This document shows, in pieces, positions 48,729 to 64,000 of a stretch of 64,000 nt of DNA. The stretch is from Micromonospora sp. WMMD1082 (GTDB taxonomy: Bacteria; Actinomycetota; Actinomycetes; Mycobacteriales; Micromonosporaceae): contig NZ_JARUBM010000002.1 in assembly GCF_029626175.1 (NCBI RefSeq), forward strand, positions 6,862,501-6,926,500. Reading direction: 5' to 3'. Numbering within the stretch: position 1 is the stretch's first letter; each line of letters opens with the position of its first letter. The notes under the pieces are model-generated. The model made no database searches. It was not told the DNA's origin and saw nothing but the letters and a program-made list of their open reading frames with translations. The translations under genes and the position numbers were made by a program.

Positions 48729-50039
48729 TCACCGTCGTTCAAGGGCGCTCGCGGCCGGTGCGAGCGCGGTCAGGGCTGCGACGACCAGCGCCGTCACGCC
48801 GGCCGGGAGGGCCAGCTCGACGCTCGGCGCGAAGGCGGCGCTGTGGTTCGTCGGCAGGATGCCGAGTTTCTCGGCCGCGTTCGCGCCGGGCGCCGCCCGC
48901 CACTGGCGCGGCCCGACGGTGCCGAGCATCCAGTAGCTGCTCGGGATCCCGCCGGCGGCCAGGAGCGGGAAGTCCTCGGAGGCCAGCGACGGTGGCCACT
49001 GCGCGACCCGCTCGGATCCGAACGCCCGTTCGTGGGCGGCGCGCACCCGGGCGGTCGCCGCCGGGTCGCCCAGCAGGGCGGGGGTACGCGACACCACGCG
49101 TACCACCGGCTCACCCGGGCTGCCGGCGGCCTCGCAGGCGGCCCGGACGGTGCGGGTCACGCCCTGGAACACGTGGTCCAGCGTCCGGTCGGACAGCGCG
49201 CGGATCGTGACACCGAGGGTGGCGTGGTCGGCGATGACCCCCGGGTGCCGGCCGGCCCGCAGCGTGCCCACGGTGAGCGCCACCTGGTCGGCCGGGCTCA
49301 CCTGCCGGGCCACGACCGCCTGCAACTGCATCACGATGCCCGCGGCCACCACCACCGGATCCACGCACCGGTGCGGCATGGCGGCGTGGCCGCCCCGGCC
49401 CGGCACGGTGACGTCCAGGGTGACGCAGCCCGCCGTCATCGGGCCGGCGCCGTGGGCGACCATCCCCGCGGGCAACGGCGCGGCGTGCTGGGCGAGGAGC
49501 AGATCGGGGCGGCCGAACCGCTCGTAGAGGCCGTCGTCGAGCATGGCCGCCGCACCCTGCATCGTCTCCTCGGCCGGCTGCCCCAGCACCAGCAGCCGGC
49601 CCCGCCAACGGTGCCGGTCGCGGGCGAGGTGGGCGGCGGCCCCGACGGCCGCGGCCAGGTGCAGGTCGTGCCCGCAGGCGTGCATGACGGGAACGGCACG
49701 GCCGTCGACGTCGAGGCCGGTGGCGGTGCTCGCGTACGGCAGCCCGGTCTGCTCCGCGACGGGGAGCGCGTCGAGTTCGGCCCGGATCAACGCGGTCGGG
49801 CCGGTGCCGTTGGCGAGGATGCCGACGACGCCGTGCCCGCCGATCCCGGTGGTGACCTCGCAGCCGATCTCCCGCAACGCGGTGGCGAAGCGGGCGGCCG
49901 TACGTTCCTCCATCCCGGACAGCTCCGGATGCGCGTGCAGGTCGCGGTAGAGCCGGCCGGCGCTGGCGAGCATGCCCGGATCGACCGTCAGGCCGGCGGG
50001 TTGGGCCTGGAGCGGGGGCCCGGGTGGTGCTGGTGCCAT
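48729..50039 (-). CDS. M20-family metal-dependent amidohydrolase
   Basis: A 436-residue enzyme of the IAA-amino acid hydrolase/hippurate hydrolase group of M20 peptidases, which remove acyl groups from N-acyl amino acids. Metal-site motifs are MHACGHDLHLAAAVGAAAH (near residue 115) and QPAEETMQGAAAMLDDGL, with AQHAAPLPAGM further on. The N-terminus LYRDLHAHPELSGMEERTA is typical. ATG 50039 has GGGG upstream. It borders the RiPP precursor gene divergently, but nothing ties it to that cluster. Confidence 0.9.
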   Translation of the reverse strand: MAPAPPGPPLQAQPAGLTVDPGMLASAGRLYRDLHAHPELSGMEERTAARFATALREIGCEVTTGIGGHGVVGILANGTGPTALIRAELDALPVAEQTGLPYASTATGLDVDGRAVPVMHACGHDLHLAAAVGAAAHLARDRHRWRGRLLVLGQPAEETMQGAAAMLDDGLYERFGRPDLLLAQHAAPLPAGMVAHGAGPMTAGCVTLDVTVPGRGGHAAMPHRCVDPVVVAAGIVMQLQAVVARQVSPADQVALTVGTLRAGRHPGVIADHATLGVTIRALSDRTLDHVFQGVTRTVRAACEAAGSPGEPVVRVVSRTPALLGDPAATARVRAAHERAFGSERVAQWPPSLASEDFPLLAAGGIPSSYWMLGTVGPRQWRAAPGANAAEKLGILPTNHSAAFAPSVELALPAGVTALVVAALTALAPAASALERR

Positions 50040-50186
50040 GGCCCCAGCCAAGTACAGGTCGCTGTCATCCCGCTCACAGCGGTTGACACCGCGCTGGCAG
50101 TCGGACGTGGGGCGATCGGTGAGCGGCCTGCGGTTTGCTGGCCTCGGACCGGACACGATGGCCGGTCACGACCGACTGGAGGCGTC

Positions 50187-50369
50187 ATGACCCCCGACAC
50201 CGAGCACGACCTCAACGCCCTCGCCGACGAGATCCTGGAGCTGGAGTCGGAGACCTTCGCGATCTCCGACTACGCCGACGCGTCCGAGGCGATCCTCGCC
50301 TCCTGCTCGTCGTCGGGTACCACCTCGACGTGCAGCAGCACCACCTCCACCACCAGCTGTTCGGCCTGA
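50187..50369 (+). CDS. Thiazolylpeptide/goadsporin-type RiPP precursor peptide
   Basis: A 60-residue precursor. The acidic leader (DLNALADEILELESETFAIS, then DYADASEAI) closely resembles thiopeptide leaders. The tail after about residue 37 (LASCSSSGTTST, then CSSTTSTTSCSA) holds three Cys and otherwise almost only Ser and Thr: substrates for YcaO heterocyclisation and LanB-type dehydration. Cleavage near LA/SC is plausible. ATG 50187 follows TGGAGG. It is encoded opposite and convergent to the modification operon, separated from it by a strong hairpin. A TTGACA element lies at 50083-50088, but no -10 is obvious. Confidence 0.85.
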   Translation: MTPDTEHDLNALADEILELESETFAISDYADASEAILASCSSSGTTSTCSSTTSTTSCSA

Positions 50370-50385
50370 GCGACCATGGCTGCGC

Positions 50386-50413
50386 GTCGGGCCGCCCGCA
50401 CGGGCGGCCCGAC
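50386..50413. terminator. Strong hairpin between precursor and operon end
   Basis: GTCGGGCCGCCC (50386-50397) pairs perfectly with 50402-50413 around a 4-nt GCAC loop. It lies 16 bases after the precursor stop and ends transcripts from both sides. Confidence 0.85.
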
Positions 50414-50465
50414 GTCCGCCCCCGCCGGCAGACACCGGTCAGCAGGCACCGGTCAGCAGGCGCTG

Positions 50466-52400
50466 CTAGGGGAACGGGTGGGGCACGAGACGCAGGTCGG
50501 CGTCGGTGAGGTCACCGCCGGCCAGGCCCGCCGCCCGCGGCGCCGTCCGTAGCCGGGGCAGGTGCGGGGCCCGCTGCCGGGTCCAGCCGAAGTCGATCGG
50601 CAGCAGTCCGGGCACGATCACGCACACCGACCGGAGCCCGATGGTCTCCTGCTCCGGTGTGGTCTGGTCGACCATGATGGCCTCGAATCCCCGCTCGCGC
50701 AGGGTGTCGAGCACCCGGTGGAGGTCGTCGAGCAGGTTCCAGGTGCGCGCGGGCCGGTAGTCGCCGAAGACCCGCTCCGCCGGAAGCGGATCGGCACCGT
50801 CCAGGTACGTGCCGGCGTGCACCGCCATCCGGGGCAGGCCGAAGAGCGCCGAGTGGTCCGGCAGCCGGCGGACGAGCGTGTAGTCGTCGGCCATCAGCTC
50901 CAGTTCGGCCCGGCGGCGATGCACCGTGCCGGGCTGGTGCGGGATGTAGGTGAGCGCCTCGGCGAGCGCCCCGGCCACGGCGCGGTGCGGGTCGACGTGT
51001 GCCGCCGCCGCGAACGACAGCATTCCGGGACCGCCGTCGTGGCGGACGGCGAGGCTGGTGACCACCGGGACGTCGAGGTCGACCCGGTTGTCGAAGGCGA
51101 GCAGGCGGTAGCCCTGCAACTCGGCGCGGTCGGCCATCGCCCGCACCACCGGTGAACAGCTGCCCAGGTCGATCCGGGGCAGGGCGAGGTTGCCGTACCA
51201 GGCGAGCAGGAACGCGTCGCGTTCGATCAGCTCCAGCAGCCCGAACAGCGCCGCCTCCTCCACGCAGCTTCCGGTGGCGCAGCCGCTGGAGGACGACAGC
51301 ACGAAGGTGTCGTCCGAGGCCGGGGAGCTGTAGAAGCAGAGCCGGCGGGGCACCAGGACCGGCCGGTCGGTGTGCAGATTGTGACCCCACACCCACGGTA
51401 TGGGCCGCTCGGGAGCGAACCGACGCAGGATGGGATCGGCGTCGTACACCGCGTCGGGATAGCTGCCGCAGCTGTCCGGATGCAGCGCGTGCGCGCTGAC
51501 GTCCGCGTAGGCCGCGACGACGGGGGTGACGTTGCGCCGGCGATGGGTGCCCGCGTAACGCTCCAGGCCCTCCAGGTAGGCCAACGACCGGCTGGCGGCG
51601 TAGCCGGTCGCCTGGCCGCTCCACGAGACGTCGAGCAGCCCGCCGTAGCCACGGATGAAGACGCTGCCGGTGACCGGCGCGGTGGTGGGTGAGGTGATGG
51701 TGAGCTGGGTGCCCGCGCCCAGGGCTCCGCAGACCGGGTTGACCAGCGCGGCCTGCGGCATCGGATAGGCGTCGGCGGCACGCAGGCGGTACACGTCCGG
51801 GTCCGGTTTGGTCCGGGTCTGCCGTGCGCCCACGGTGGCCGTGGGCCCGTCGGGCTGCGGCACGCCGCAGGTGGGGCAGCGTGGCTCGGCCAGCACCGGA
51901 TAGCTGCGCACCCGCAGGCTGCCCAGGTCCAGCCGGCTGACCCGGGCAAGCGTGCCGCTGTGCCGGTCCCAGGTGTGCGGTGGTGGCGGTGGTGGGCCGG
52001 CGTACACGGCCCGGTAGAGATCCCAGACGGCGTCGAGTTGGTAGGCGGTCAGGTGCGGCCACGGGCCGACCGCCGTCGGCCGATCGCCGACCTCCAGGGC
52101 GTCGCGTTCGCTGCGGGTACGCAGTCGTTGCCAGCGGATGGCCAGGCAGTGCCCGCACGCCGGGTGCGGCACCGCACCGCCGCGCGGACCGATCAGGACG
52201 GCGTCCGCGCTGAGGTGCACGGTGGCGTGGCGGCGGTCGGGCTGGGCAGCGCCGAGCGCGTCGGCGCCGCCCAGCGTCACGACGCGCGGCGCGCCGCCCA
52301 CGGGCCGCGCCTCCCACCGGCGGCGCAGGTGCTCCCCGAGCCGGGCCGCGGCGGCGGACAGCGGGGCAGGGCGCGCTGCCGCCGTCGCGGTAGTGGTCAT
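50466..52400 (-). CDS. YcaO azoline cyclodehydratase fused to leader-binding domain (copy 1)
   Basis: A 644-residue fusion. Residues about 1-220 are a partner-protein-like domain with two zinc Cys pairs (ACGHC and CPTCG); the remaining about 420 residues are YcaO, recognised by SSSSGCATGSCVEEAALFGL with LLELIERDAFLLAWYG and the C-terminal PHPFP. It converts Cys/Ser/Thr to azolines with ATP. It overlaps the ABC permease gene by ATGA and is the last gene of the operon. It is a paralogue of the enzyme at 62093. Confidence 0.93.
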   Translation of the reverse strand: MTTTATAAARPAPLSAAAARLGEHLRRRWEARPVGGAPRVVTLGGADALGAAQPDRRHATVHLSADAVLIGPRGGAVPHPACGHCLAIRWQRLRTRSERDALEVGDRPTAVGPWPHLTAYQLDAVWDLYRAVYAGPPPPPPHTWDRHSGTLARVSRLDLGSLRVRSYPVLAEPRCPTCGVPQPDGPTATVGARQTRTKPDPDVYRLRAADAYPMPQAALVNPVCGALGAGTQLTITSPTTAPVTGSVFIRGYGGLLDVSWSGQATGYAASRSLAYLEGLERYAGTHRRRNVTPVVAAYADVSAHALHPDSCGSYPDAVYDADPILRRFAPERPIPWVWGHNLHTDRPVLVPRRLCFYSSPASDDTFVLSSSSGCATGSCVEEAALFGLLELIERDAFLLAWYGNLALPRIDLGSCSPVVRAMADRAELQGYRLLAFDNRVDLDVPVVTSLAVRHDGGPGMLSFAAAAHVDPHRAVAGALAEALTYIPHQPGTVHRRRAELELMADDYTLVRRLPDHSALFGLPRMAVHAGTYLDGADPLPAERVFGDYRPARTWNLLDDLHRVLDTLRERGFEAIMVDQTTPEQETIGLRSVCVIVPGLLPIDFGWTRQRAPHLPRLRTAPRAAGLAGGDLTDADLRLVPHPFP

Positions 52401-53152
52401 GAGTTGTTGCTCCACCGGAAGGTACGCACACCGACGGCCACGAACACGGCGGCGAAGGCGACCAGCGCGACGCAGGACAGCAGGTAGTCGTTCATGGTGC
52501 CGAACCCGGTGAAGGCGTACGCCATGCCGTCGTTGACGTACCGCAGCGGCAGGGCCCGCGAGATCCCCTGGAGCCAGCCCGGCATCAGCTCCAGCGGGTA
52601 GAACGAGCCGGAGAGGAAGGCCATCGGTACGACGATGCAGTTGGCGATCGCGGCGACCGCCTCGGGGGTGTCCGCCCGGGAGCCGACGATCAGGCCGAGG
52701 GCGAGGAAGGTCGTCACCGCGAGCAGCATCACCGGCACCGACAGCGGCCACGTCGGGTCCGGGCGCATGCCGAAGACCGGCAGCATGGCCACGCCGACGA
52801 AGAGCAGGCTCTGCGCCACGCCGATGCCGAGCGCCACCAGGTAGCGGGAGCCGATCACCGACCAGATGCTGATCGGTGAGAGCCGGATGATGCGCAGCAG
52901 GTCGTCGTTGCGCCACTGCATCAGGGTGAACGACACCCCGAACAGGGCGGCGCTGGCCAGACCCCAGGACAGCACGCCCGGGGCGATGTAGTCGACGTAC
53001 CCACGGCCCGTGTCGGCGACCTCCTGGTTGCGGAAGATCAGGCCGAAGATGACCAGGAAGACGAGCGGGAACGCGAAGGTGAAGAACAGCGTCGTGGCGT
53101 CGCGGACGTTCGCCTTGTACGTCGCCCGGGACAGTGCGGCAAAAGCGCTCAT
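52397..53152 (-). CDS. ABC-2 permease of the RiPP exporter
   Basis: A 251-residue permease with six hydrophobic helices and the ABC-2 pattern TTLFFTFAFPLVFLVIFGLI at helix 1 and MAFLSGSFYPLELMPGWLQG near helix 5. ATG 53152 overlaps the ATPase stop, so it pairs with that gene. It probably exports, or gives immunity to, the peptide product. Confidence 0.9.
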   Translation of the reverse strand: MSAFAALSRATYKANVRDATTLFFTFAFPLVFLVIFGLIFRNQEVADTGRGYVDYIAPGVLSWGLASAALFGVSFTLMQWRNDDLLRIIRLSPISIWSVIGSRYLVALGIGVAQSLLFVGVAMLPVFGMRPDPTWPLSVPVMLLAVTTFLALGLIVGSRADTPEAVAAIANCIVVPMAFLSGSFYPLELMPGWLQGISRALPLRYVNDGMAYAFTGFGTMNDYLLSCVALVAFAAVFVAVGVRTFRWSNNS

Positions 53153-54075
53153 GCCTGCGGCGCTCCCATCATCTCCAGGTAGACGTCTTCCAGGGTGGCG
53201 GGCCGGGTCTCCACGTCGTCCAGGCTGGCCTCGGCGCCGAGCGCGGCCAGCACCCGGGCGGCCTGCGTGGTACGCAGGACGATCGCGCCGTCCTCGACGT
53301 CCACACCGGACACACCGTCGAGGTTGCCGGCCTGCTCCGGCGTCAGCCGGCCGGGCGGCACGACCAGGCGGGTGCCGACACCGGAGCGGGCGATCAGCTC
53401 CCGGGGGCTGTCCAGGGCGAGGAGACGGCCGGCGGAGAGGATGGCGACCCGGTCGCACAGCCCCTGCGCCTCGTCGAGGTGGTGGGTGGTGTAGACGATG
53501 GTCTTGCCGACGGCCTTGAGGTCCCGCAGCATCTGCCCGAGGACGCGGCGGGCCTGCGGGTCGAGTGCGGCGGTGGGCTCGTCCAGGAAGATCACCTGCG
53601 GGTCGTGCACGACGGCCGAGGCGATCGCGAGGCGCTGGCGCTGGCCACCCGAGACGTTGGTGACCCGCACGTCGGCCGAGTCGGTCAGCCCGACCAGACC
53701 GAGCGCCCGGTCCGCGGCGGCCTCGGGCAGGCCGTACAGCGCCGCGACCGTCACCAGGTGCTCGCGGGCGGTCAGCCGGGTGAAGAACGCCGAGCGCTGG
53801 GTCTGCACCCCGATGAGGGGCAGCAGGGCGAGGTTGCGCGGGGCGGGCGAGTGGCCCAGCACGGTGACGGTGCCGCTGTCCGGCGTACGCAGGCCCTCGA
53901 TCATCTCGATGAGCGTGGTCTTGCCCGCGCCGTTGGGCCCGACCAGACCGAAGAACTCACCACGGCGGATCGAGATCGAGATGTCGTCGACCGCCCTCAC
54001 CTCGCCATACGATTTGCTCACTGCGTCCAGCACGATGGCTGGACCGCCGGTAGGGGGCATGGGCTCGCCTTTCAC
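53149..54075 (-). CDS. ABC ATPase of the RiPP exporter
   Basis: A 308-residue ATPase: Walker A LVGPNGAGKTTLIEMIEG, signature VSGGQRQRLAIASAV, Walker B VIFLDEPTAALDP, switch His in VYTTHHLDEA. The C-terminal extension resembles drug-export ATPases. GTG 54075 forms a GTGA overlap with the protease gene and has AGGA upstream; ATG 54060 is an alternative. Confidence 0.92.
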   Translation of the reverse strand: MKGEPMPPTGGPAIVLDAVSKSYGEVRAVDDISISIRRGEFFGLVGPNGAGKTTLIEMIEGLRTPDSGTVTVLGHSPAPRNLALLPLIGVQTQRSAFFTRLTAREHLVTVAALYGLPEAAADRALGLVGLTDSADVRVTNVSGGQRQRLAIASAVVHDPQVIFLDEPTAALDPQARRVLGQMLRDLKAVGKTIVYTTHHLDEAQGLCDRVAILSAGRLLALDSPRELIARSGVGTRLVVPPGRLTPEQAGNLDGVSGVDVEDGAIVLRTTQAARVLAALGAEASLDDVETRPATLEDVYLEMMGAPQA

Positions 54076-55277
54076 TTGGTGTCCTGTTCAGCAGGGGGAG
54101 ACAGGGTTCGATCCATGGGGCGTCCGCGTCGGGAGCGGGCCAGCCAGCCGGCGATCGTCAGGGCGACGACCGCGGCGGGCAGGACGTAGCCGGGCGTACC
54201 GAGGGCGGGCCGGAGCAGCGCGCCCCCGAGATAGCTCACGGCGGCGGCGACGGCGGTGACCGCCAGCAGCCACCACGCGCCGTAGAGGGCGAGGCCGATC
54301 GCGGCCCGCCGCGGATAGCGTGGGCCGGTTCGCCGAAGCGGGCGACGGAGGGCCGCGTACAGGTAGCGGCGGCTCTCCGGGGCCAGGTTGAGCGCGCCCA
54401 TCAGGTGACTGACGATCTTGTAACCGTCCAGCGGCGGCAGGGGGATGACGTTGACCAGCGTCTGGGCGCTGCCGAGCAGGACGTACGCGCCGAACAGCCG
54501 GTCGGCGAAGGCGCCCGGGATGACCGCGAGTGTCGCGCCGACGACCACCAGGACCAGCCCGTTGGCCACCCCACCGGCGGCGGCGATCGCCACCTGCTGC
54601 GACCGCCGCGGCAGATACAGGTAGTCGTCGACCCGGCAGGTGAGGGTGACCAGGTTGACCCGGTTGACGGTGGCGCCCTGGGCGACGGCGGTGAGCGCGT
54701 GGGCGAACTCGTGCAACGCGGCGCCGATCCAGGCGAGCAGCACCAGCGCGAGCAGGCTGGCGGGGTCGGTGAACGCCGGGCGCGCGGCCTGCCAGAGCGG
54801 GCCGATCCGCGCCCCGACGGCCACCAGCGTCACCACGACGGGCACGCACAGCAGCGCGAACCCGACCGGGTGCAGGAGCCAGCTCAGGCGCCGCGCCCAC
54901 CGCTCGGTCGCGCCCCGCCGCCGCACCCCGGCGGCCGCCACCGGTCCGGCCGTCGCCACCGGCTCGGCGGCCGTTACCGGTGCGGCCTCCCGGTCGAGCA
55001 GGTCCCGCTCGTGCAGCAGCCACAACAGCCGGGTCCAGTGCGCGTCGCCGAGGCGGCGACCGAACTCGGCGGCGTACTCGGCGTTGATCTCGGACAGGGA
55101 CCGCACGCCGTCCAGGCGGCGGACGAGGAACCGCTCCTTCGCCGAGATCTCGAACTCCCTGCCGTTCCGGCGGTCCTTGACCAGGCAGACGGTGGCGGGG
55201 CCGCGCCACATCGGGCGCGAGAAGACGAGATCCTCCCGCAGTCGGGGGCGCTTGGCCAGCAGACCCGCCCCGGTCAT
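54072..55277 (-). CDS. RRE-M50 fusion: leader-binding domain plus membrane metalloprotease
   Basis: A 401-residue protein. Residues about 10-100 look like a PqqD-type RiPP recognition element (RLREDLVFSRPMW, then REFEISAKERFLVRRLDGVR). The rest is a membrane domain with the site-2-protease motif HEFAH (about residue 207, in GAALHEFAHALTAVAQGA) and the second metal motif NVIPLPPLDGYKIV. Such proteins occur in thiopeptide-like and other RiPP operons; leader removal or processing during export is a reasonable inference. It is coupled on both sides by ATGA/GTGA overlaps. Confidence 0.85.
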   Translation of the reverse strand: MTGAGLLAKRPRLREDLVFSRPMWRGPATVCLVKDRRNGREFEISAKERFLVRRLDGVRSLSEINAEYAAEFGRRLGDAHWTRLLWLLHERDLLDREAAPVTAAEPVATAGPVAAAGVRRRGATERWARRLSWLLHPVGFALLCVPVVVTLVAVGARIGPLWQAARPAFTDPASLLALVLLAWIGAALHEFAHALTAVAQGATVNRVNLVTLTCRVDDYLYLPRRSQQVAIAAAGGVANGLVLVVVGATLAVIPGAFADRLFGAYVLLGSAQTLVNVIPLPPLDGYKIVSHLMGALNLAPESRRYLYAALRRPLRRTGPRYPRRAAIGLALYGAWWLLAVTAVAAAVSYLGGALLRPALGTPGYVLPAAVVALTIAGWLARSRRGRPMDRTLSPPAEQDTK

Positions 55278-56347
55278 TCCGGCACCGCCGGGTCACGCAG
55301 CACCCGCGCGAGCAGATAGGACAGGTACGCCTCGTCGCGGATGGTGGCGTGCAGCCGGTTGTTGGTCATGTGCAGGTACGGCGAGAGCAGCGCCGCGAGG
55401 GCCTCCCCCGGATCGGTGACCACCCGGTCGGCACCGCCGCCCCACGCGGTGACGGTCAGCCGGCCGGACGCGGCCAGCCCCAGCACCTTCTCCCGGAGTT
55501 GGGCGGCGTGCTCGGCCCAGTCGCGCAGGACGTTCGGCAGCCGCTGGGTCTCGCCCCGCGCGACGAGGGCGAGGATCCGCTTCACCCGGCCGCCCAACTC
55601 GACCGCCACGCCGTCGTACATCCGGGTGTACTCGTCGATGCCGATGAGGCTGGTGCCGGCGAACGCGCGGTGCCAGAAGTGGTGGTACCGGTCGAGGAAG
55701 TCGACCAGTTCCTCCCGGTCGGTCAGGAACGTGCCCGCCATCACCGTCATCAGCTGCGCGGCGGTGCCCAGCAGCACCGGGCGCAGGTGCAGGTTCATCG
55801 AGGAGAGGGCGCGCAGCACCATCTCGCTGGAGTGCTGGAAGTGCCACTCGGCGATCTCGATGCCCTCGGGTCCGCCGTACTTGCCGTACTCGGGCTCGTA
55901 GCGCCGGTAGCTGAACGAGTTGTTGGCCTGCAACACCATCTGCCCGTTCGGGTCGATCAGCTCCGCCGGCCTCCCGTCGGGAAACTCCAGGTCGAAGAGG
56001 ATGTCGTAGAGCTCCCGCAGGTAGCCGGCGCCCATCGCGTACAGGGCGGGGCGGGTGGTCAGGAACCGGTCGATCGCCGCCTCGGCCTGCGCCCGTACCG
56101 CCGGCTCGTCCTCGGGGGTCCTCGGGCGCAGCCGCAGCCGCACGTGCGGCCCCTCCAGCCAGTAGTTGATGAAGAAGTGGCCGGCGAGCAGGTTCTGCTC
56201 GGTCAGGTCGCGCACCAGCGGTGCGACGCAGTCGACCAGCAGGGGCTGCGGGTTGGCCGCGTAGAAGACGTGCAGGGCCAGCCACCGGCCGCGCGGGTCG
56301 GCGGCCGGGTCGGCGTTGCGTGGCGCGGCGGCGGCTGACGGGGTCAT
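55274..56347 (-). CDS. SpaB_C-type (thiopeptide-type) elimination enzyme
   Basis: A 357-residue stand-alone domain like the C-terminal part of LanB dehydratases. Starts DPRGRWLALHVFYAANPQPL; ends PYLHMTNNRLHATIRDEAYL, where the HMxxNR pattern is typical. In goadsporin and thiopeptide systems one such protein removes glutamate from glutamylated Ser/Thr to give dehydroamino acids, and a second, when present, makes the pyridine core. Only this one is seen, so elimination is favoured. Its ATG sits at the IS110 junction; the element now supplies an upstream AAGGTAGGA that can act as ribosome-binding site. Confidence 0.85.
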   Translation of the reverse strand: MTPSAAAAPRNADPAADPRGRWLALHVFYAANPQPLLVDCVAPLVRDLTEQNLLAGHFFINYWLEGPHVRLRLRPRTPEDEPAVRAQAEAAIDRFLTTRPALYAMGAGYLRELYDILFDLEFPDGRPAELIDPNGQMVLQANNSFSYRRYEPEYGKYGGPEGIEIAEWHFQHSSEMVLRALSSMNLHLRPVLLGTAAQLMTVMAGTFLTDREELVDFLDRYHHFWHRAFAGTSLIGIDEYTRMYDGVAVELGGRVKRILALVARGETQRLPNVLRDWAEHAAQLREKVLGLAASGRLTVTAWGGGADRVVTDPGEALAALLSPYLHMTNNRLHATIRDEAYLSYLLARVLRDPAVPE

Positions 56348-56577
56348 CGGGTCCTACCTTCTTGATCGTGATGACCGCCCTGTTCGTAGGGTTGGCTCAT
56401 CCGGGGGTGCTGGGTGTGGCTTTCATCGGGTTGCCGTTGATGGCTCAGGAGACCTGGCCGCCCAGCACCCCGCGACGACTCGGCCGCCGATTGGGAGTTG
56501 CGAGTAGATCGCTGTGTAGGACCATGCCGGCGAGGTCGTCTGCGGACCGACTCACCAACGAACTTGTGGAGGTGACC
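56348..56577 (+). ncRNA. Candidate bridge RNA region of the IS110 element
   Basis: Non-coding left end. CATCGGGT at 56424-56431 is identical to the left junction (56345-56352), and ATTGGGAG at 56490-56497 is identical to the right target flank (57776-57783); ATGACC at 56371-56376 is complementary to the left target end GGTCAT. IS110 bridge RNAs carry donor- and target-recognising guides in this position. GGTCCTAC (56350-56357) and GTAGGACC (56516-56523) can pair to close the region. The exact RNA ends are unknown. Confidence 0.5.
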
Positions 56578-57768
56578 GTGCCCAAGGTGTGGGCCGGCGT
56601 AGATATCGGCAAGGCGCATCACCACTGTGTGGTGGTCGACCAGAACGGCGACCGGCTGCTGTCGCGGCGAGTGGCCAACGAGGAAGCGGAGTTGCTGACG
56701 CTGCTGGCCGATGTGCTGGCACTGAGCGACGAGGTCACGTGGGCGGTCGACGTGGCCGACGGCGGCGCGGCTCTGCTGATCGCCTTGCTGATCAACCATG
56801 AGCAGCGGCTGGTCTATATCTCTGGTCTCGCGGTGAACCGGGCCGCCGCCGGTTACCGCGGAACCGGCAAGACCGATGCCCGCGACGCCGCAGTGATCGC
56901 CGACCAGGCACGTATGCGCCGTGACCTCAGCCCGGTGCGCCCGGGAGACGAGGCGGCCGTCGAGTTGAAGATCCTCACCGCCCGCCGGAGCGACCTGGTC
57001 GCCGACCGGACCCGCACCATCAACCGACTGCGCGAGCAGTTGCTGAACATCTTCCCCGCGCTGGAACGTGCCCTCGACCTGACCAACCACGGCCCGCTGG
57101 TGCTGCTGACCGGCTATCAGACCCCCGCAGCTCTTCGCCGTGTCGGCGTCGCGCGGTTGCAGACCTGGCTGCGTAACCGCAAAGTCCGCTCGGCCGGCAC
57201 CATCGCCGCCGCCGCTGTCGAGGCCGCCGACCGGCAACGCACCACGCTGCCCGGCGAGAAGCTCACCGCCCAGATGGTTCACACCCTCGCCAAGGAGGTG
57301 ATCGCCCTCAACGAGAAGGTCAGCGAGATCGACAAGCTCATCGAGGGCCGGTTTCATGAGCACGAACTCGCCGAAGTGATCTCCAGCATGCCCGGCATCG
57401 GCGCGCTGCTCGGCGCTGAGTTCCTGGCCGCCACCGGCGGCGACCTCGACGCCTTCGGCACCCCGGACCGGCTGGCCGGCTTCGCCGGCCTGGCTCCCTC
57501 GCCCCGCGATTCCGGACGCGTCAGCGGCAACCTGCACCGCCCACGCCGCTACCACCGGGGCCTCCAGCGCGTCTTCTACACCTCCGCGCTGATCAGCATC
57601 CAACGATGCACCGAGTCGCGGCGCTTCTACGACCGCAAACGCGGCGAGGGCAAACGGCACACTCAGGCCGTACTCGCACTCGCCCGCCGCCGAATCAACG
57701 TCCTGTGGGCACTCCTGCGTGACAGACGGTGCTACCAACCCGTACCGCCTGCCGCTATCGCGGCTTGA
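56578..57768 (+). CDS. IS110-family transposase (bridge-RNA-guided recombinase)
   Basis: A 396-residue DEDD/Ser recombinase. The N-terminal RuvC-like domain starts VWAGVDIGKAHHHCVVVDQN and includes GYRGTGKTDARDAAVIADQA; the C-terminal Transposase_20 domain has ISSMPGIGALLGAEFLAATG and FAGLAPSPRDSG with the likely catalytic Ser. GGAGG lies five bases before GTG 56578; GTG 56572 is an alternative. Full length and apparently intact, on the strand opposite to the RiPP operon. Confidence 0.95.
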   Translation: MPKVWAGVDIGKAHHHCVVVDQNGDRLLSRRVANEEAELLTLLADVLALSDEVTWAVDVADGGAALLIALLINHEQRLVYISGLAVNRAAAGYRGTGKTDARDAAVIADQARMRRDLSPVRPGDEAAVELKILTARRSDLVADRTRTINRLREQLLNIFPALERALDLTNHGPLVLLTGYQTPAALRRVGVARLQTWLRNRKVRSAGTIAAAAVEAADRQRTTLPGEKLTAQMVHTLAKEVIALNEKVSEIDKLIEGRFHEHELAEVISSMPGIGALLGAEFLAATGGDLDAFGTPDRLAGFAGLAPSPRDSGRVSGNLHRPRRYHRGLQRVFYTSALISIQRCTESRRFYDRKRGEGKRHTQAVLALARRRINVLWALLRDRRCYQPVPPAAIAA

Positions 57769-57773
57769 CAACG

Positions 57774-60506
57774 TCATTGGGAGGTCTCCCTGAGGTCCGT
57801 ACGGAAGGTCTCGACGGCCAGCTCGCAGACGTGGTCACCGCGCTCGCCCCGGGCCGCCAGCTCGTCCGCGGCGGGCAGCATCTCCCGCAGCACGATCCGG
57901 TCGTCCGGCCCGTCGAGGGCGGCCCGCAGCGCCTGCAACGACAGCGGGCTGTCGAAGTCGACGTACTGCGGCTTCGGGTTGGCCGCCGGCCGGCCGGGTG
58001 CGGCCGGGTGGACGGTGGCGAACACCTGCCGCGGCACGCCGTGCCGGGCCCGCCACCGGCGCCAGTCGAGGAAGGCCGCCGGGTCGACCGCGGGATCGCC
58101 CGGTGCCGGCAGGTCGCCCACCCGCGCCGACCAGCTGCGGCGGCTGAGCACGACGCTGCCGGCGCGCACCCGGGGCCGTACCGCGACGCCGCCGGGGCCG
58201 GCCACGGCGGGCACACCGCGCCACACGTCGAGCCGCACCATCGACGCCGGGGACAGCAGCAGCAGGGTGCGGGGGATCTGCGGCAGCGCCATCGGCACCA
58301 GGTAGCCGAGGTAGACGGCGATCACCTCCCGGTCGAGACGGGTGGAGCGGAGCACGACCCGGTCGGTGGCCGGGTCGTGCACGAGATAGAGGTCGTCGAG
58401 GGTGAGCTGCCGCTCGGCCGGGACACTGCTCGTCTCGCCCGGGCAGACGATGACGTAGTCGGTGAGCCGGGCGTGCAGGTTCAGATTGGTGGTGGCGGAT
58501 CCACCGGTCAGCTCCGCGAACACCGCACCGGCCGGCGTGATCTCGCTCGCCTGAGCGCGCAGCCGTTCGGCGAGCGGCGGGGTGTCGCCGTCGAAGCAGT
58601 GGGTGAAGCGGCTGAACGGGAACGACAGCCCGCCGAACGACTGGTTGAGGACCACCAGCGGGTCGGGCTCCCGCATCGCCAGCTGCACGAAGTGCCCCTG
58701 CGGGTGGAAGCCGGGGCTGACGTCGCCGAGCGTGGCGGCCAGTTCGTCGAGCAGATCCGCCGGCAGCAGCAGCTCGGGCCGGCCCGGGTCGGCGTCGGCG
58801 AGCCCGCGCAGCCGCGCGGCGAAGGTCTGCCGGGCCTCATCCAGCGCGGTCATCTCGGGTCGGCCCAGCCAGTTCTCCTCCGGGGTGTACGTGCCGTCGT
58901 CGGCGAACGGACGGCGGCCCGCGGTGTAGGAGGAGTACTGGTCGTAGAGGTCGTCGTGGAAGTCCTCGACCAGGCGCAGCAGGTCGTCGCAGCGACCGCC
59001 CACGCCGAACCGGGCCAGGAAGAAGCCGTGGAACATGATCCGGTGCGGCAGGTTCTGGTCGAAGGCGGGCAGGATCCGTTCCACCGCGGCGAGGTCGGGG
59101 CCGACCAGCCGCCGCCAGGCTCCGGCGGACACGGCGAGGGGTTCGCCGTCGACCCGGCTGTCCTCGTACAGCAGCGTCTGCGGCAGGACCACGGACTGCT
59201 CGCCCAGGGCCGCCATCGTCGCCCGCAGCGCGGCCCGCAACCGGTGCAGCAGCTCCCGGCGCCGCCCGAGGTCGCCGTGTGGGAAGGCGTCGACCAGCCC
59301 GGTGATCTCGTCGAGCTGGCCGGCGAGCCGCCGGGCCCAGGGCCGGTCGAGCCGGCCCACCGTGGCGGCGAGCGCCCGCATCGGGTCCGGGGTGTGCACG
59401 TCGGTGTCCAGGCCGACCAGCCGGAGCATGCCCAGCCGCAGCAGGGTCGACAGGTACGCCTCGCCGTCGGCTCGGGCGGCGCCGGTCCCCGCGCAGAGCC
59501 GGTCCACCAGGTCGGCGCACCGGATCGTGCCGCGTTCCCGCAACAGGGCGGTGAGGTCGTCCAGGACACCGCTGCGGCGCAGGAAGAACAGCCCGTCCCG
59601 GACCGCGTCGAAGCTGACCGCGGCGCTGTCGTCGCCGGCGGTGACCCAGTGACGCACGTAGCGGACCCGGTCGGCGTCCTGGCGCCAGCCGGGGCTCAAC
59701 GCGACCGACAGGTCACCGCGCCGCCCGGGGTCGGCGCTGATCAGGTCGGCCAGCCGGGCCACCAGCACGACGTTGAGCCGGACGTGACGCTGCCAGTGCT
59801 CGCCCACGGCGAGGCCCAGCCCCGGCGCGGCCTCGTCGAAGCGACCCAGGGCCACCGCCGTGAAGGTGCTGAACGGGCTGGTCTTGCACGCGGTGCGGTA
59901 GAGATAGGACAGCAGCGAGCGCTCGACGCGCCGGGTCCGCTTGTTCGCCGGTCGGGTCAGCTCCGGCCGGGCACTCGTGGCGAGTTGCTCGTCGAGGGTC
60001 GGCGAGGCGAGCTGGAGCCCACCGCGCAGGCGTGGTTCGTCGGCCAGTTGCCACAGGTGCGCGCGGGCCCGGGCGACGTCGGCGGCGAACACCGCGGCGC
60101 CGTCGTCCTGCAGCTGCGCGAGCCGCGCCCGCAGCCGCAGCCAGCGCTGCACGGCGGGCCGGGCCGACGGCCGGGCCCGTTCGACCGCGGCGAGCGCGGC
60201 CTCGGGGGACGCGGGCAGGGTGTTGTTGAAGACCTGCCGCCGCAGCGCCAGCAACCGCCGTCGCGCGGCGTCGTCCTCGTTGTCGTTGACCAGGTCGTAG
60301 AGGAGCTGGCTCAGCTCCGCCCCCTCGGCTTCGAGCTGGCGGTGCAGCGCGAGGACGGAGTCGGCCCACGCGGCTGCCTGCGGGCAGCGCAGCGCGTCGA
60401 CCGTCGACAGGGGCAGCCCGGCGACCCGGGCGGTGAGGTAGGACCCCGACCGCCAGCCGGCCGGAGCCGCGTGCGGCGCGCCCTGCGCCAGCACTGCCGG
60501 CGTCAC
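57774..60506 (-). CDS. LanB-type tRNA-dependent glutamyltransferase (dehydratase N-terminal part)
   Basis: A 910-residue enzyme of the lantibiotic dehydratase N-terminal family that transfers glutamate from Glu-tRNA to Ser/Thr side chains. Recognisable segments: YLYRTACKTSPFSTFTAVAL (about 200-220), the family's K-x-S-P-F-S/T region, and FGGLSFPFSRFTHCF late in the protein. The elimination domain is encoded separately, the split form known from thiopeptides and goadsporin. GTG 60506 forms a GTGA overlap with the dehydrogenase gene; the longer open frame to 61706 is a shadow. The stop codon is preserved at the IS110 junction. Confidence 0.9.
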   Translation of the reverse strand: MTPAVLAQGAPHAAPAGWRSGSYLTARVAGLPLSTVDALRCPQAAAWADSVLALHRQLEAEGAELSQLLYDLVNDNEDDAARRRLLALRRQVFNNTLPASPEAALAAVERARPSARPAVQRWLRLRARLAQLQDDGAAVFAADVARARAHLWQLADEPRLRGGLQLASPTLDEQLATSARPELTRPANKRTRRVERSLLSYLYRTACKTSPFSTFTAVALGRFDEAAPGLGLAVGEHWQRHVRLNVVLVARLADLISADPGRRGDLSVALSPGWRQDADRVRYVRHWVTAGDDSAAVSFDAVRDGLFFLRRSGVLDDLTALLRERGTIRCADLVDRLCAGTGAARADGEAYLSTLLRLGMLRLVGLDTDVHTPDPMRALAATVGRLDRPWARRLAGQLDEITGLVDAFPHGDLGRRRELLHRLRAALRATMAALGEQSVVLPQTLLYEDSRVDGEPLAVSAGAWRRLVGPDLAAVERILPAFDQNLPHRIMFHGFFLARFGVGGRCDDLLRLVEDFHDDLYDQYSSYTAGRRPFADDGTYTPEENWLGRPEMTALDEARQTFAARLRGLADADPGRPELLLPADLLDELAATLGDVSPGFHPQGHFVQLAMREPDPLVVLNQSFGGLSFPFSRFTHCFDGDTPPLAERLRAQASEITPAGAVFAELTGGSATTNLNLHARLTDYVIVCPGETSSVPAERQLTLDDLYLVHDPATDRVVLRSTRLDREVIAVYLGYLVPMALPQIPRTLLLLSPASMVRLDVWRGVPAVAGPGGVAVRPRVRAGSVVLSRRSWSARVGDLPAPGDPAVDPAAFLDWRRWRARHGVPRQVFATVHPAAPGRPAANPKPQYVDFDSPLSLQALRAALDGPDDRIVLREMLPAADELAARGERGDHVCELAVETFRTDLRETSQ

Positions 60507-62083
60507 CGCAGCTCGTAACGGTAGTCGCCGAGCTGGCCGCGCTCGTCGCCGGCGAGCATGATGAGCAGCGGGAACTCGCCGGTGTCGGCGAGCTTCAGCT
60601 CCTCGACGTACGAGACGCTGTCGAAGCCCAGCGCCACCCCGGCGCCGAGCCGCAGCGCGGCGGCGGCGGTGTAGAAGGTCTGGGCGATCGCCCCCACGGT
60701 GGCGTTGACCAGGTTGTAGCCCCGGTCGCCGGTGGCGTCCAGCACGGCGTGGGTGCGTACGGTCGGGACGAGCACCGCCGCGGCCTGCTCCAGGTTGTAG
60801 TTGGCCAGGAAGTAGGTGCGTTGCAGGAACTCCCCCGGTGGGTCGCCGGTGACGCGGATCAGCGCGTGGCCCTCGGGGTCGTACTCGTAGCCCCCGGCCG
60901 GCACCCCGGCGACGTGGTTGACGAAGGCGTAGACCTTCGCCAGCGGACGGTCGTCGCCGCCGTCGATCTCGCAGGGCACCGTGGTGGCGGCGGTGGCGCG
61001 CAGCAGCGCCGCGAGCTGCTCCGCCGGGATCGGCCGGCCGGCCAGGAACCGGCCGAAGCTGCTGCGGCGCCCGGCGAGGGCGTCGCTGACGGGCATCTCC
61101 ATCGCCCTCGCGGCCGGCAGCGGCACGCGGAACCCGCCCGACGGCGGATGCGCGGCGGCCCCCGCCAGCGCACCGACGGGCGGCCGGTCGACGGCGGCGG
61201 CGGTGCTGCGGTGGATGCGCCGCAGGGTGTCGAAGCCGAGCACCGTGCGGGACCGTTCCCGGTCGGCGTGGCGGACCCGCACGGTCGCCGGCACCGGCGG
61301 GCCGTCGGGGGTGGCCACGGCCGAGGTCAGGGGTACGACGGCGAACAGCGCCTCGTCGTCCGGGGCGAGCCCGAGCAGGTCGGCGACCGCGGCCTGGTCG
61401 AACCAGAGGATCGGCCGGATCTGCCGGCCCTGGGCGCCGGCCCACAGCCGCCAGGTCTGCACCAGCGTGCCCACGTCCATCGACACGGCGTGGTAGGAGA
61501 AGTTGTTGTACTTGAAGGCGTTCTGCCAGTACTTGACCCCGACGACCAGGAACTGGGTGGCCGGGTGCCGCGCACCGACCGCCGCGTTCACCCGGGCGGT
61601 GACGTCGCCGGCCAACAGCCGCTGCATGGCGTGCCGGGCGTGGGCGTAGTAGTAGACGCCGGGGCTGACCCCGGCACCGGGGCCCGTGATCCAGTAGACG
61701 CTGCACGGGTAGAGGCCGCCACCCGACGCGGTGCCGCGGTACCAGTTGGCGTGGGCGTACGAGGGCAGGGCGGCCAGGTCGGTGTTGGCCTGGATGCCGA
61801 GTCGGCGGCCGAGCAGCCCGTACGAGTGGTGCAGCATGCCGGCCAGCAGCTCCGGCGTGAACGGCTCGTCGGCGTCGCCGGGGCCGCGCAGCGCGGTGTC
61901 CAGGTCGGCGGTGACCGCCGCCGGGGCCGGCAGCGGGAAGGCGGTCGCCTCGGGGTAGTACTTGCCGCGCCGGGGCGCGTCGGCCCAGTCCGGGGTGAAG
62001 TCGACCGGCGGCATGGGCTCCCGGCCACGACGCAGGATCGCGGTCGCGTAGCGGTGGGCGAAGCCGGAAATGTCAGGCGTCAT
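60503..62083 (-). CDS. SagB-type azoline dehydrogenase (two nitroreductase domains)
   Basis: A 526-residue FMN-dependent oxidase that turns azolines into azoles. Two nitroreductase-fold halves are visible: residues about 75-260 (ANWYRGTASGGGLYPCSVYW) and about 325-520 (ALAGRRSSFGRFLAGRPIPA, then RGYNLVNATVGAIAQTFYTA). The bimodular size is typical of thiopeptide-type clusters. GAGGTG overlaps the upstream yca0-type gene end and precedes ATG 62083 at good spacing. Confidence 0.92.
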   Translation of the reverse strand: MTPDISGFAHRYATAILRRGREPMPPVDFTPDWADAPRRGKYYPEATAFPLPAPAAVTADLDTALRGPGDADEPFTPELLAGMLHHSYGLLGRRLGIQANTDLAALPSYAHANWYRGTASGGGLYPCSVYWITGPGAGVSPGVYYYAHARHAMQRLLAGDVTARVNAAVGARHPATQFLVVGVKYWQNAFKYNNFSYHAVSMDVGTLVQTWRLWAGAQGRQIRPILWFDQAAVADLLGLAPDDEALFAVVPLTSAVATPDGPPVPATVRVRHADRERSRTVLGFDTLRRIHRSTAAAVDRPPVGALAGAAAHPPSGGFRVPLPAARAMEMPVSDALAGRRSSFGRFLAGRPIPAEQLAALLRATAATTVPCEIDGGDDRPLAKVYAFVNHVAGVPAGGYEYDPEGHALIRVTGDPPGEFLQRTYFLANYNLEQAAAVLVPTVRTHAVLDATGDRGYNLVNATVGAIAQTFYTAAAALRLGAGVALGFDSVSYVEELKLADTGEFPLLIMLAGDERGQLGDYRYELR

Positions 62084-62092
62084 GGCGGCACC

Positions 62093-63976
62093 TCACGGGA
62101 ACGGGTGGGGAACGGAGTGGATCTCGTCGTCGTGCAGGTCGCGGTCGAGCAGGCCGGCGGCGCGGAACGCCGTCCGGAGCCGCCGCGAGTGTGGGGCGCG
62201 CTGGCGCATCCACCCGAAGTCGATCGGCAGCAGCCCCGGCACGACGACGCTGGCCGTCGCCAGGCCCAGGTCCCGCTGTTCGGGTGTGGTCTGGTCGACG
62301 ACGATCACGTCGAAGCCCTCCCCGGTCACCGCCTTGAGGCAGTACTCAAGGTCGTCGCGGAGATCGCCGGAGACGGGCGGGGCGGGACGGGGCGGCCCGT
62401 ACAGCCGCGCCATCGGCGCCGGTGCGGGGCCGCGCTCCAGCAGGAACGCGGCGTGGTGGGCCATCTCGGGCAGGCCGTACAGCAGCGGGTGGTCGTGTAG
62501 GCCCTGCACCTGGTGGAAGTCGGTCACCATGCGGCGCAGGCGGGCCTCGTCGGCGCCCGCGCGCACCCGGACCATGACCGAGTCGGTGGCGATCTCGCAC
62601 AGCGCCGCGGTGATGGCGGCCTGCGGGTCGAGGCTGGCGCCGCCGCCGAACGCCAGCGTGCCGAGGCCGCCGTCCTCGCGGGTGGCCACCGCGGTGACCA
62701 CCGGGATGTCGAAGGTCGTCCGGGCGTCGAAGAACCTGGCCCGGTAGCCGTACATCGCCAGCCGGTCGATCATCATGCGGGTCCGGGGCCGTTCGATGCT
62801 GGCCGGGTCGATCTCCGGCAGGGACCGGGCGCCGTACCAGGCGAGCAGGAACGCGTCCCGCTCGATCGCCTCCATCAGGCCGTGGTAGACCGCCTCCACC
62901 AGCGATCCGCCCGAGGCGCACCCGTTGGACGTCTCCTGGACGAAGCGCTCCTCGACGCTCGCCGCGTGGTAGAAGACGAGGATCTCGGGCACCAGCAGCG
63001 GTCGCTGGTCGCGCAGCGACCAGCCCCAGACCCAGGTGATCGGCCGGTCCGGATCGAACCGGTGCACGTACGGGTTGGCCCGATAGAACTCGTCGGGGTA
63101 GAGCCCGCACTCGCGCGGGTCGAGGGCGTCGTCGCCCAGCTCGCGCAGGGTCGCGGTGACCGCGGTGCGCCGGCCCCTCGGGCGCAGGCCGGCGGCGCGT
63201 TCGAGCCCTTCCAGCACGGCGATGCGGGCGCTGCGCCGGTAGCCGTCGGCGTGCCCGCCGTACAGGGTCTCGCGCAGGTACCGGCCGCTGCGCAGGGTGA
63301 ACGAGCCGACCGCCGGTGAGGTCGACAGCGAGGTGATGTCCTGCCAGAGGGTGCCGCCGAGGGCACCGCAGACCGGGTTGGCGAAGGCCTCGACGTCCAA
63401 CGGGTAGTCGTCCAGGTCCTTCTCCCGGAACGTGCCCGGCGCGCGCGTGGGCACGGCACGCAGCTCGATCGGGGCGAGTTCGGGCGCGTCGGTGACGGCC
63501 TGGCCGCACCCCGGGCACTCCGGGTCCGGCACCAGCGGAACCCGGTGCACCCGCAACGTGTGCAGGTCGACCTGGAAGACCGTGCTCGTGGTGGCGTCGT
63601 CCGGCGCGACGGTCGTGCGGTGCGCCTCGATCAGCGCGTGCAGGAAGTCCGCGACGAACGCGGTCGCGTACGGCCATGGCCCCGTCGCGGTGGTCGGGCC
63701 GCCGAGTTCGACCGCGTCCCGCAGGTCACGGTGGCGCACCGCCTGCCACCGCCGGGCCAGGCAGGTCACGCACGCCGCGGCCGGCGGCACCGGTCCGAGC
63801 AGCGCCAGCTGCCCGTACAGCAGCACCCGGGGCGGACCGGCCGGGCGGGCGGGGGCGGTCAGCTCGTCGCGTACCCCCAGGGCGATCACCTCGGCGTCGC
63901 AGCCCCGCCGCGCGAGCAGGTCCGCCAGGCCGGCACCGACCAGCCGGTCGGTGGCCGTCGGCGCGGTGGTGTTCAC
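62093..63976 (-). CDS. YcaO azoline cyclodehydratase fused to leader-binding domain (copy 2)
   Basis: A 627-residue paralogue of the 50466 gene with the same architecture: N-terminal zinc Cys pairs (ACVTC and CPGCG) and a YcaO domain with TSNGCASGGSLVEAVYHGLM, EAIERDAFLLAWYG and terminal PHPFP. It is likely the first or second gene of the operon. GTG 63976 overlaps the stop of a gene entering from the right edge. Two such enzymes suggest division of labour, e.g. Cys versus Ser/Thr or different positions. Confidence 0.93.
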   Translation of the reverse strand: MNTTAPTATDRLVGAGLADLLARRGCDAEVIALGVRDELTAPARPAGPPRVLLYGQLALLGPVPPAAACVTCLARRWQAVRHRDLRDAVELGGPTTATGPWPYATAFVADFLHALIEAHRTTVAPDDATTSTVFQVDLHTLRVHRVPLVPDPECPGCGQAVTDAPELAPIELRAVPTRAPGTFREKDLDDYPLDVEAFANPVCGALGGTLWQDITSLSTSPAVGSFTLRSGRYLRETLYGGHADGYRRSARIAVLEGLERAAGLRPRGRRTAVTATLRELGDDALDPRECGLYPDEFYRANPYVHRFDPDRPITWVWGWSLRDQRPLLVPEILVFYHAASVEERFVQETSNGCASGGSLVEAVYHGLMEAIERDAFLLAWYGARSLPEIDPASIERPRTRMMIDRLAMYGYRARFFDARTTFDIPVVTAVATREDGGLGTLAFGGGASLDPQAAITAALCEIATDSVMVRVRAGADEARLRRMVTDFHQVQGLHDHPLLYGLPEMAHHAAFLLERGPAPAPMARLYGPPRPAPPVSGDLRDDLEYCLKAVTGEGFDVIVVDQTTPEQRDLGLATASVVVPGLLPIDFGWMRQRAPHSRRLRTAFRAAGLLDRDLHDDEIHSVPHPFP

Positions 63977-64000
63977 CGGTCGTCCCCGCCGGCCAGCAGC
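63973..64000 (-). CDS. C-terminal end of an unidentified upstream operon gene
   Basis: A frame entering from the right edge encodes LLAGGDDR and stops with TGA at 63973-63975, overlapping the GTG of the YcaO gene (GTGA) exactly as elsewhere in the operon. Too short to identify. Confidence 0.5.

Follow-up and report, generated by a model that had tools for sequence, protein, structure and literature searches.

A widespread actinomycete RiPP gene cluster with a near-invariant Ser/Thr/Cys core, predicted to yield a linear peptide with azoles and dehydroamino acids

A gene cluster for a ribosomally synthesized and post-translationally modified peptide (RiPP) was found in Micromonospora sp. WMMD1082, at positions 50187-64000 of a 64,000-nucleotide stretch of its genome (contig NZ_JARUBM010000002.1, positions 6,862,501 to 6,926,500; this whole stretch is called the window). 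The operon lies on the minus strand, running from about 67928 down to 50466. Its neighbouring genes overlap or are separated by at most about 10 bases, with the single exception of one break that holds an element of the insertion sequence (IS) family IS110, and the precursor gene lies on the plus strand just past the operon end, tail to tail with it. Family models confirmed the inventory of an original prediction made from the letters of the DNA: two YcaO fusions, a two-domain dehydrogenase, a split LanB, an M50 protease with a RiPP recognition element (RRE), an ATP-binding cassette (ABC) exporter and the precursor (Table 1). That prediction had missed the IS110 element and the M20 hydrolase, and the F protein (all but its 3' end) and the regulator lay beyond the window.

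Table 1. Features of the cluster, in positions of the window and its right extension
Feature	Position	Strand	Evidence and remarks
M20-family amidohydrolase	48729-50156	-	PF01546/PF07687; TIGR01891 237.1 bits (cut-off 153.75); true start uncertain
Precursor peptide, 60 aa	50187-50369	+	TIGR03892 35.1 bits (cut-off 25); NF033400 28.7, slightly below 30
YcaO2, TIGR03882-YcaO fusion cyclodehydratase	50466-52400	-	PF02624, TIGR03604, TIGR03882; ExxER/ExxERD and C-terminal PHPFP intact
ABC-2 permease	52397-53152	-	PF01061
ABC ATPase, DrrA-like but under the DrrA model's cut-off	53149-54075	-	Family-model matches
RRE-M50 intramembrane metalloprotease, likely leader peptidase	54072-55277	-	PF02163
SpaB_C protein, predicted glutamate-elimination type	55274-56347	-	PF14028 147 bits; HMTNNR motif; profile and catalytic column
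IS110-family element	56346-57789, ends +/- ~5 nt	+	PF01548/PF02371; transposase frame within 56221-57768
LanB_N glutamylation protein, TbtB type	57774-60515, start approximate	-	PF04738; PDB 6ec7 E=1.9e-29
Two-domain SagB-type azoline dehydrogenase	60503-62083	-	PF00881 two stretches; TIGR03605 two stretches
YcaO1, TIGR03882-YcaO fusion cyclodehydratase	62093-63976	-	PF02624, TIGR03604, TIGR03882
Ocin-ThiF-like F protein, degenerate C-terminal YcaO part	63973-66153 (only 63973-64000 in window)	-	TIGR03693, TIGR03882
BTAD (AfsR/SARP-like) regulator	66150-67928, outside window	-	PF03704/PF00486

The precursor ends in a tail of approximately SCSSSGTTSTCSSTTSTTSCSA, which is taken as the core with a putative cleavage position; unmodified, this core has a monoisotopic mass of 2032.75. 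The extended sequence (99.5 kb) contains 1117 stop-to-stop open reading frames (ORFs) of at least 40 aa, and the precursor was the sole one with at least 19 Ser, Thr or Cys in its last 22 residues. Since its position is also conserved in relatives, it is more than a chance ORF, and it passes the thiopeptide-type precursor model TIGR03892. Relatives were collected from genomes sampled at one per species, where 172 candidates gave 166 encoding stretches and the best 80 were kept (the 80 related loci). Precursors were found in 51 of the 80 (54 copies) and not found in the remaining 29, many of which are incomplete stretches. No promoter or terminator was found in a scan around the WMMD1082 precursor.

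The core varies very little. A search with a leader pattern, and hence biased towards similar precursors, gathered 60 copies at 59 loci (59 distinct DNA sequences). Their final 15 residues are TSTCSSTTSTTSCSA, of which 14 are invariant, while position -2 was S, T or C. Each of the six core serine positions is encoded by TCN in some copies and by AGY in others, and the threonine codons vary as well. Going from a TCN to an AGY codon takes two or more base changes, so the amino-acid letters were held while the DNA moved. The claim of core conservation rests on these identical amino acids despite differing codons and not on the pN/pS count (nonsynonymous and synonymous differences; core tail pS 0.20 and pN 0.15, leader pS 0.25 and pN 0.06), which alone is no proof of purifying selection on the core because TCN/AGY serine steps are counted as non-synonymous. 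Three copies missed by the leader pattern, all at one locus (L019), have the first conserved Cys replaced by Thr, and the more distant two-YcaO loci L186, L187 and L189 carry other Ser/Thr/Cys-rich cores, one of them with Asp. A near-invariant core between genera is unusual for a secreted RiPP. The core had been called unusual in the original prediction, which holds against characterised peptides but not across the relatives, where it is nearly always the same wherever a precursor was found.

Across ten loci each, YcaO1 and YcaO2 fall into two separate groups. Their TIGR03604 scores were 321 bits (YcaO1) and 350.7 bits (YcaO2), each being fused to TIGR03882, and both retain ExxER and ExxERD, motifs that bind metal and ATP, together with a C-terminal PHPFP (or PHPYP) in the rows that reach the end. 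The YcaO-like part of the F protein has lost the ExxER/ExxERD motifs; this protein matched TIGR03882 at 51.4 bits (cut-off 36.9) and TIGR03693 at 71.1 bits, well under the cut-off of 561.9. In the M50 protein HExxH and LDGY were invariant in 21/21 aligned rows. Its structure model resembles SpoIVFB and site-2 protease (weak best E 0.015, probability 1.00), its first 90 residues resemble the leader-binding RRE protein TbiB1 (weak best E 0.5, probability 0.99), and it is related to the daptide intramembrane protease model NF041824 at 74.5 bits, far under the cut-off of 300. The M20 amidohydrolase was matched in 57 of the 80 related loci, including all 51 with a precursor, and was therefore counted as a cluster member, perhaps with a role in trimming or self-protection. 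The BTAD regulator was matched in 62/80.

The thiopeptide-defining enzyme, a TbtD-type [4+2] pyridine synthase, was found neither in the flank of the cluster nor in the genome. When the whole genome (7,443,785 bases) was searched with the TbtD/PbtD model NF045556 at E<=1e-3, the sole match was the single SpaB_C protein of the cluster, with 78.8 bits (cut-off 325). About 10.5 kb of the right flank (8 ORFs) were annotated and the rest of 35.5 kb was covered by ORF and tRNA lists. The cluster ends at about 67928 and is followed by pheT, pheS, a SpoU methylase gene and rplT (ribosomal protein L20), which set its boundary there; a pyridine synthase just outside the window, for which a search right of 64000 had been proposed, was thus ruled out by this flank and by the genome search. 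LanC was not found in the cluster either, as the genome's two LANC_like matches, at C2:1.575 and 3.236 Mb, belong to clusters far away. The view that the cluster fits neither textbook thiopeptides nor lanthipeptides stood, as did the single SpaB_C and the missing LanC on which it was built.

The cluster SpaB_C protein is predicted to be of the glutamate-elimination type (TbtC/GodG type). The motif H[MLV]xxNR was present in 81/81 family rows and 16/16 TbtC-type (C) rows but in 0/15 TbtD-type (D) rows, six of which (L121-L126) score under the TbtD cut-off at 117-161 bits and were assigned to D by us. The catalytic column within this motif was His in 16/16 aligned family rows and 16/16 C rows, whereas the D rows had Tyr (14/15) or Phe (1/15). 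In NisB, H961 is described as essential and as belonging to the elimination site (PMC4341554). The profile score of the cluster protein was 295 to the C type versus 159 to the D type, and the C model outscored the D model in 113/113 rows. In a relative (G615, locus L191) the SpaB_C gene is split between two overlapping frames, which may mean that the pathway is decaying in that genome.

Taken together, the elimination-type SpaB_C, the lack of a pyridine synthase and the lack of a LanC nearby make a goadsporin-like route the best reading, and we consider it quite probable that the cluster makes a linear RiPP with azoles and dehydroamino acids from the Ser/Thr/Cys core, with no [4+2] cyclisation. 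The gene set, the intact motifs, the missing pyridine synthase and the near-invariant core are direct observations, from which every reaction, the order of steps, the residue-by-residue modification, export and cleavage are predicted. The ThiF-type F protein would bind the leader and present the precursor to the two CD-fused YcaO cyclodehydratases, which would turn some Cys, Ser and Thr into azolines. The two-domain SagB protein would oxidise these to thiazoles and (methyl)oxazoles. LanB_N would glutamylate remaining Ser and Thr using Glu-tRNA, and SpaB_C would eliminate the glutamate to give dehydroalanine (Dha) and dehydrobutyrine (Dhb). The RRE-M50 protease would then remove the leader at the membrane and the ABC-2 pump would export the product, while the M20 hydrolase probably trims the product or protects the cell.

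Alternatively, the product could be a true thiopeptide, if the single SpaB_C protein performed both elimination and [4+2] cyclisation and the macrocycle were formed from Ser1 and a distal Ser. The precursor and SpaB_C do pass TIGR03892 and TIGR03891, respectively. In the predicted-fold comparison of SpaB_C, pyridine synthases ranked first with TbtD nearest; this ranking was not used for function because the elimination domains were present only within large LanB proteins, with no stand-alone one. In the SpaB_C tree, which took 16 of the 81 family rows, the family formed its own clade inside neither the C nor the D rows, weakly beside the D clade. The conserved motif with His where pyridine synthases have Tyr and the closer profile match to the C type argue against this alternative, and the TbtD-model score of 78.8 bits falls in the range of TbtC-type partners (~24-106 bits). 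Moreover, one SpaB_C gene was present in each of the 80 related loci, whereas 15 of 16 thiopeptide-like loci had two, the sixteenth being a short contig. We therefore regard a thiopeptide as very unlikely. A lanthipeptide-azole hybrid, with lanthionine rings formed from Dha or Dhb and the three Cys either by chance or through a distant LanC, is similarly improbable: the core with three Cys and many Ser and Thr would allow it and the genome does have two LanC-like genes, but these are megabases away, each lying in its own cluster between genes that contain SpaB_C, and the two YcaO proteins with intact motifs are expected to consume the Cys.

A further reading, compatible with the proposed linear pathway, is that the cluster is dead or mis-expressed in WMMD1082 through the IS110 element, so that the product would come from relatives only. 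The element, with its transposase on the opposite (+) strand, sits at the LanB_N/SpaB_C junction and may change the expression of the five downstream genes. Three close relatives (L161, L162 and L164) have no insertion at this junction, with L161 reading ...GGAGAGGGAGACCCGATG... between the two LanB genes, and the ribosome-binding-like part that precedes SpaB_C in relatives stays on the LanB_N side, at the far side of the element. On the other hand, the cluster genes keep open frames, that of LanB_N stopping a few residues into the junction. The end of the element places AAGGTAGGACCCG ahead of the SpaB_C start codon and looks like it supplies a new ribosome-binding-like AAGGTAGG before the ATG, and all six genome copies of the element precede a start codon. 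Inactivation or mis-expression in this strain is a fair possibility, though less likely than not. The idea that the IS110 element caused the LanB split was rejected, as LanB_N and SpaB_C are separate genes in relatives too.

The linear pathway was compared with described systems. Goadsporin is N-terminally acetylated by an acetyltransferase, for which no gene was found among the annotated genes of the cluster, and its core, ATVSTILCSGGTLSSAGCV, is less Ser/Thr/Cys-rich than the cluster core. As in goadsporin-type linear azole-containing peptides, a fused YcaO, a dehydrogenase and a split LanB occur here without a pyridine synthase. The goadsporin system (GodA-H), as described in PMC5303826 and PMC4603692, shares these enzymes and a linear peptide with azoles and Dha; its description in PMC5303826 gives one YcaO cyclodehydratase (GodD) and a peptidase-ABC transporter (GodB) that removes the leader, whereas two YcaO fusions with an F protein and an RRE-M50 protease with a separate ATPase and ABC-2 permease are present here. 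Thus the predicted likeness to goadsporin held for the proposed route, given the elimination-type SpaB_C and the missing pyridine synthase and LanC, but not for the details of the cluster (two YcaO proteins with an F protein, RRE-M50 protease and core).

The closest described architecture is that of the coryneazolisin group (types 1 and 2), an uncharacterised group of thiazole/oxazole-modified microcins (Cox et al. 2015, PMC4603692), which we compared by description and not by sequence. In that account it likewise has two YcaO proteins, LanB-like dehydratases, no [4+2] enzyme and a core of nearly all Cys, Ser and Thr; it differs in having one discrete and one fused YcaO, where both carry TIGR03882 here, and a mid-core Ile that is absent here. 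Thiopeptide clusters (thiomuracin, GE2270, berninamycin) share the ThiF-type F protein, YcaO, dehydrogenase, TbtB/TbtC-type pair and TIGR03892 precursor and differ in their TbtD-type pyridine synthase. Dehydrazoles (carnazolamide) also combine azoles and dehydrated Ser on one core, but are described with a LanM-type DUF4135 dehydration enzyme and a nitrile-hydratase-like leader (PMC10676384). Text searches of the open-licence PubMed Central (PMC) literature with core and leader fragments found no paper, and among the papers listed by topic searches none was recognised as a description of this family; PMC13098539, PMC11537254 and PMC9576775 had no bearing on it. In a 2020 genome paper (PMC7093587), four Streptomyces from sponges are described as sharing a "thiopeptide" cluster whose prepropeptides are very similar; this is possibly the same family.

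The relatives are mostly Streptomyces, and also include Salinispora, Micromonospora, Actinoplanes, Catellatospora, Dactylosporangium, Cellulomonas and others, the operon being syntenic in many Streptomyces and Micromonosporaceae. Streptomyces lavendulae (L027) and S. griseus (L077) are examples with an intact cluster free of the IS. LanB_N was matched in all 80 related loci; 58 have two separate YcaO genes, and 61 gave a match to every one of the eight enzyme and transport queries, where a single YcaO gene may count for both YcaO queries. The family is a real, well conserved branch of presumably linear azole/dehydroamino-acid RiPPs with no described product found; the WMMD1082 cluster is an ordinary member save for its IS110 insertion.

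Family SpaB_C genes were present in 39/160 sampled Micromonospora genomes, 48/295 Streptomyces (a genus assignment confirmed by two loci identical to the Streptomyces loci L026 and L045) and 19/394 in the class, counts that include a sister branch to which 21 of the 39 Micromonospora matches, just 42-46% identical in SpaB_C, belong. Seven sister-branch loci examined (L174-L180) have a single YcaO within 20 kb, as do six loci of other genomes (L181, L183-L185, L188 and L190). Two to four precursors were present in 10 of these 13 one-YcaO loci and one in 2; none was found in L188. Their cores are almost wholly Ser, Thr and Cys, for example SSSCSCSSCCSCSTSSCCSTSTSTSSCG and WCSSSTSTSSCSSCSTSSCCGCSSCSCSSTS (the latter with an inner Gly), and the precursors are often several and Cys-rich, otherwise alike. 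Sister-branch cores are much alike between Micromonosporaceae and another family of the class. L186 and L187, from a third family, have two YcaO genes and three precursors each, and L189 also holds two YcaO genes.

The interest lies in the family as a whole, with its Ser/Thr/Cys cores kept nearly letter for letter. Nearly every residue of a core made almost only of Ser, Thr and Cys could become an azole or a dehydroamino acid, and the near-invariance between genera points to a fixed target or role. We tentatively suggest, as a possibility short of probable, a widespread actinomycete superfamily in which Ser/Thr/Cys-only cores would give a near-continuous conjugated peptide ribbon acting as a signal or structural molecule, with sister clusters making up to four ribbons. 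If so, near letter-for-letter conservation between genera would be expected of such a molecule and not of a fast-changing antibiotic. The precursor and SpaB_C pass models named for thiopeptides, although the cluster is without the thiopeptide-defining enzyme. The two branches form a natural experiment, two YcaO proteins and a Ser/Thr-rich core versus one YcaO and Cys-rich cores, often with several precursors, and this contrast makes the division between azole and dehydration sites a testable question.

Elsewhere in the WMMD1082 genome, PF14028 matched five further proteins (six in all with the cluster SpaB_C) at three distant places with LanB-type genes. Of the further LanB-type loci L128, L129 and L130 (C2:1.57, 3.24 and 4.52 Mb), two contain a LanC-like gene between SpaB_C-containing genes and the third one LanB-like gene. 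At one of the LanC-containing loci, the frame that encodes SpaB_C also carries a PCMT-type methyltransferase domain.

Five more near-identical IS110 copies are present in the genome (C2:487712, 837428, 1093946, 3033151 and 3604390; L131-L136 including the window copy). All six directly precede the ATG or GTG start of a frame that points away from the element (357, 265, 335, 46, 157 and 165 aa). The target looks like a Shine-Dalgarno/start-codon junction, the empty site having been seen for the window copy alone, and the element may have guide-RNA target specificity for translation starts. On their other side the copies have (A/G/T)GGAGACC or AGAAGACC, part of which may be the element's own end.

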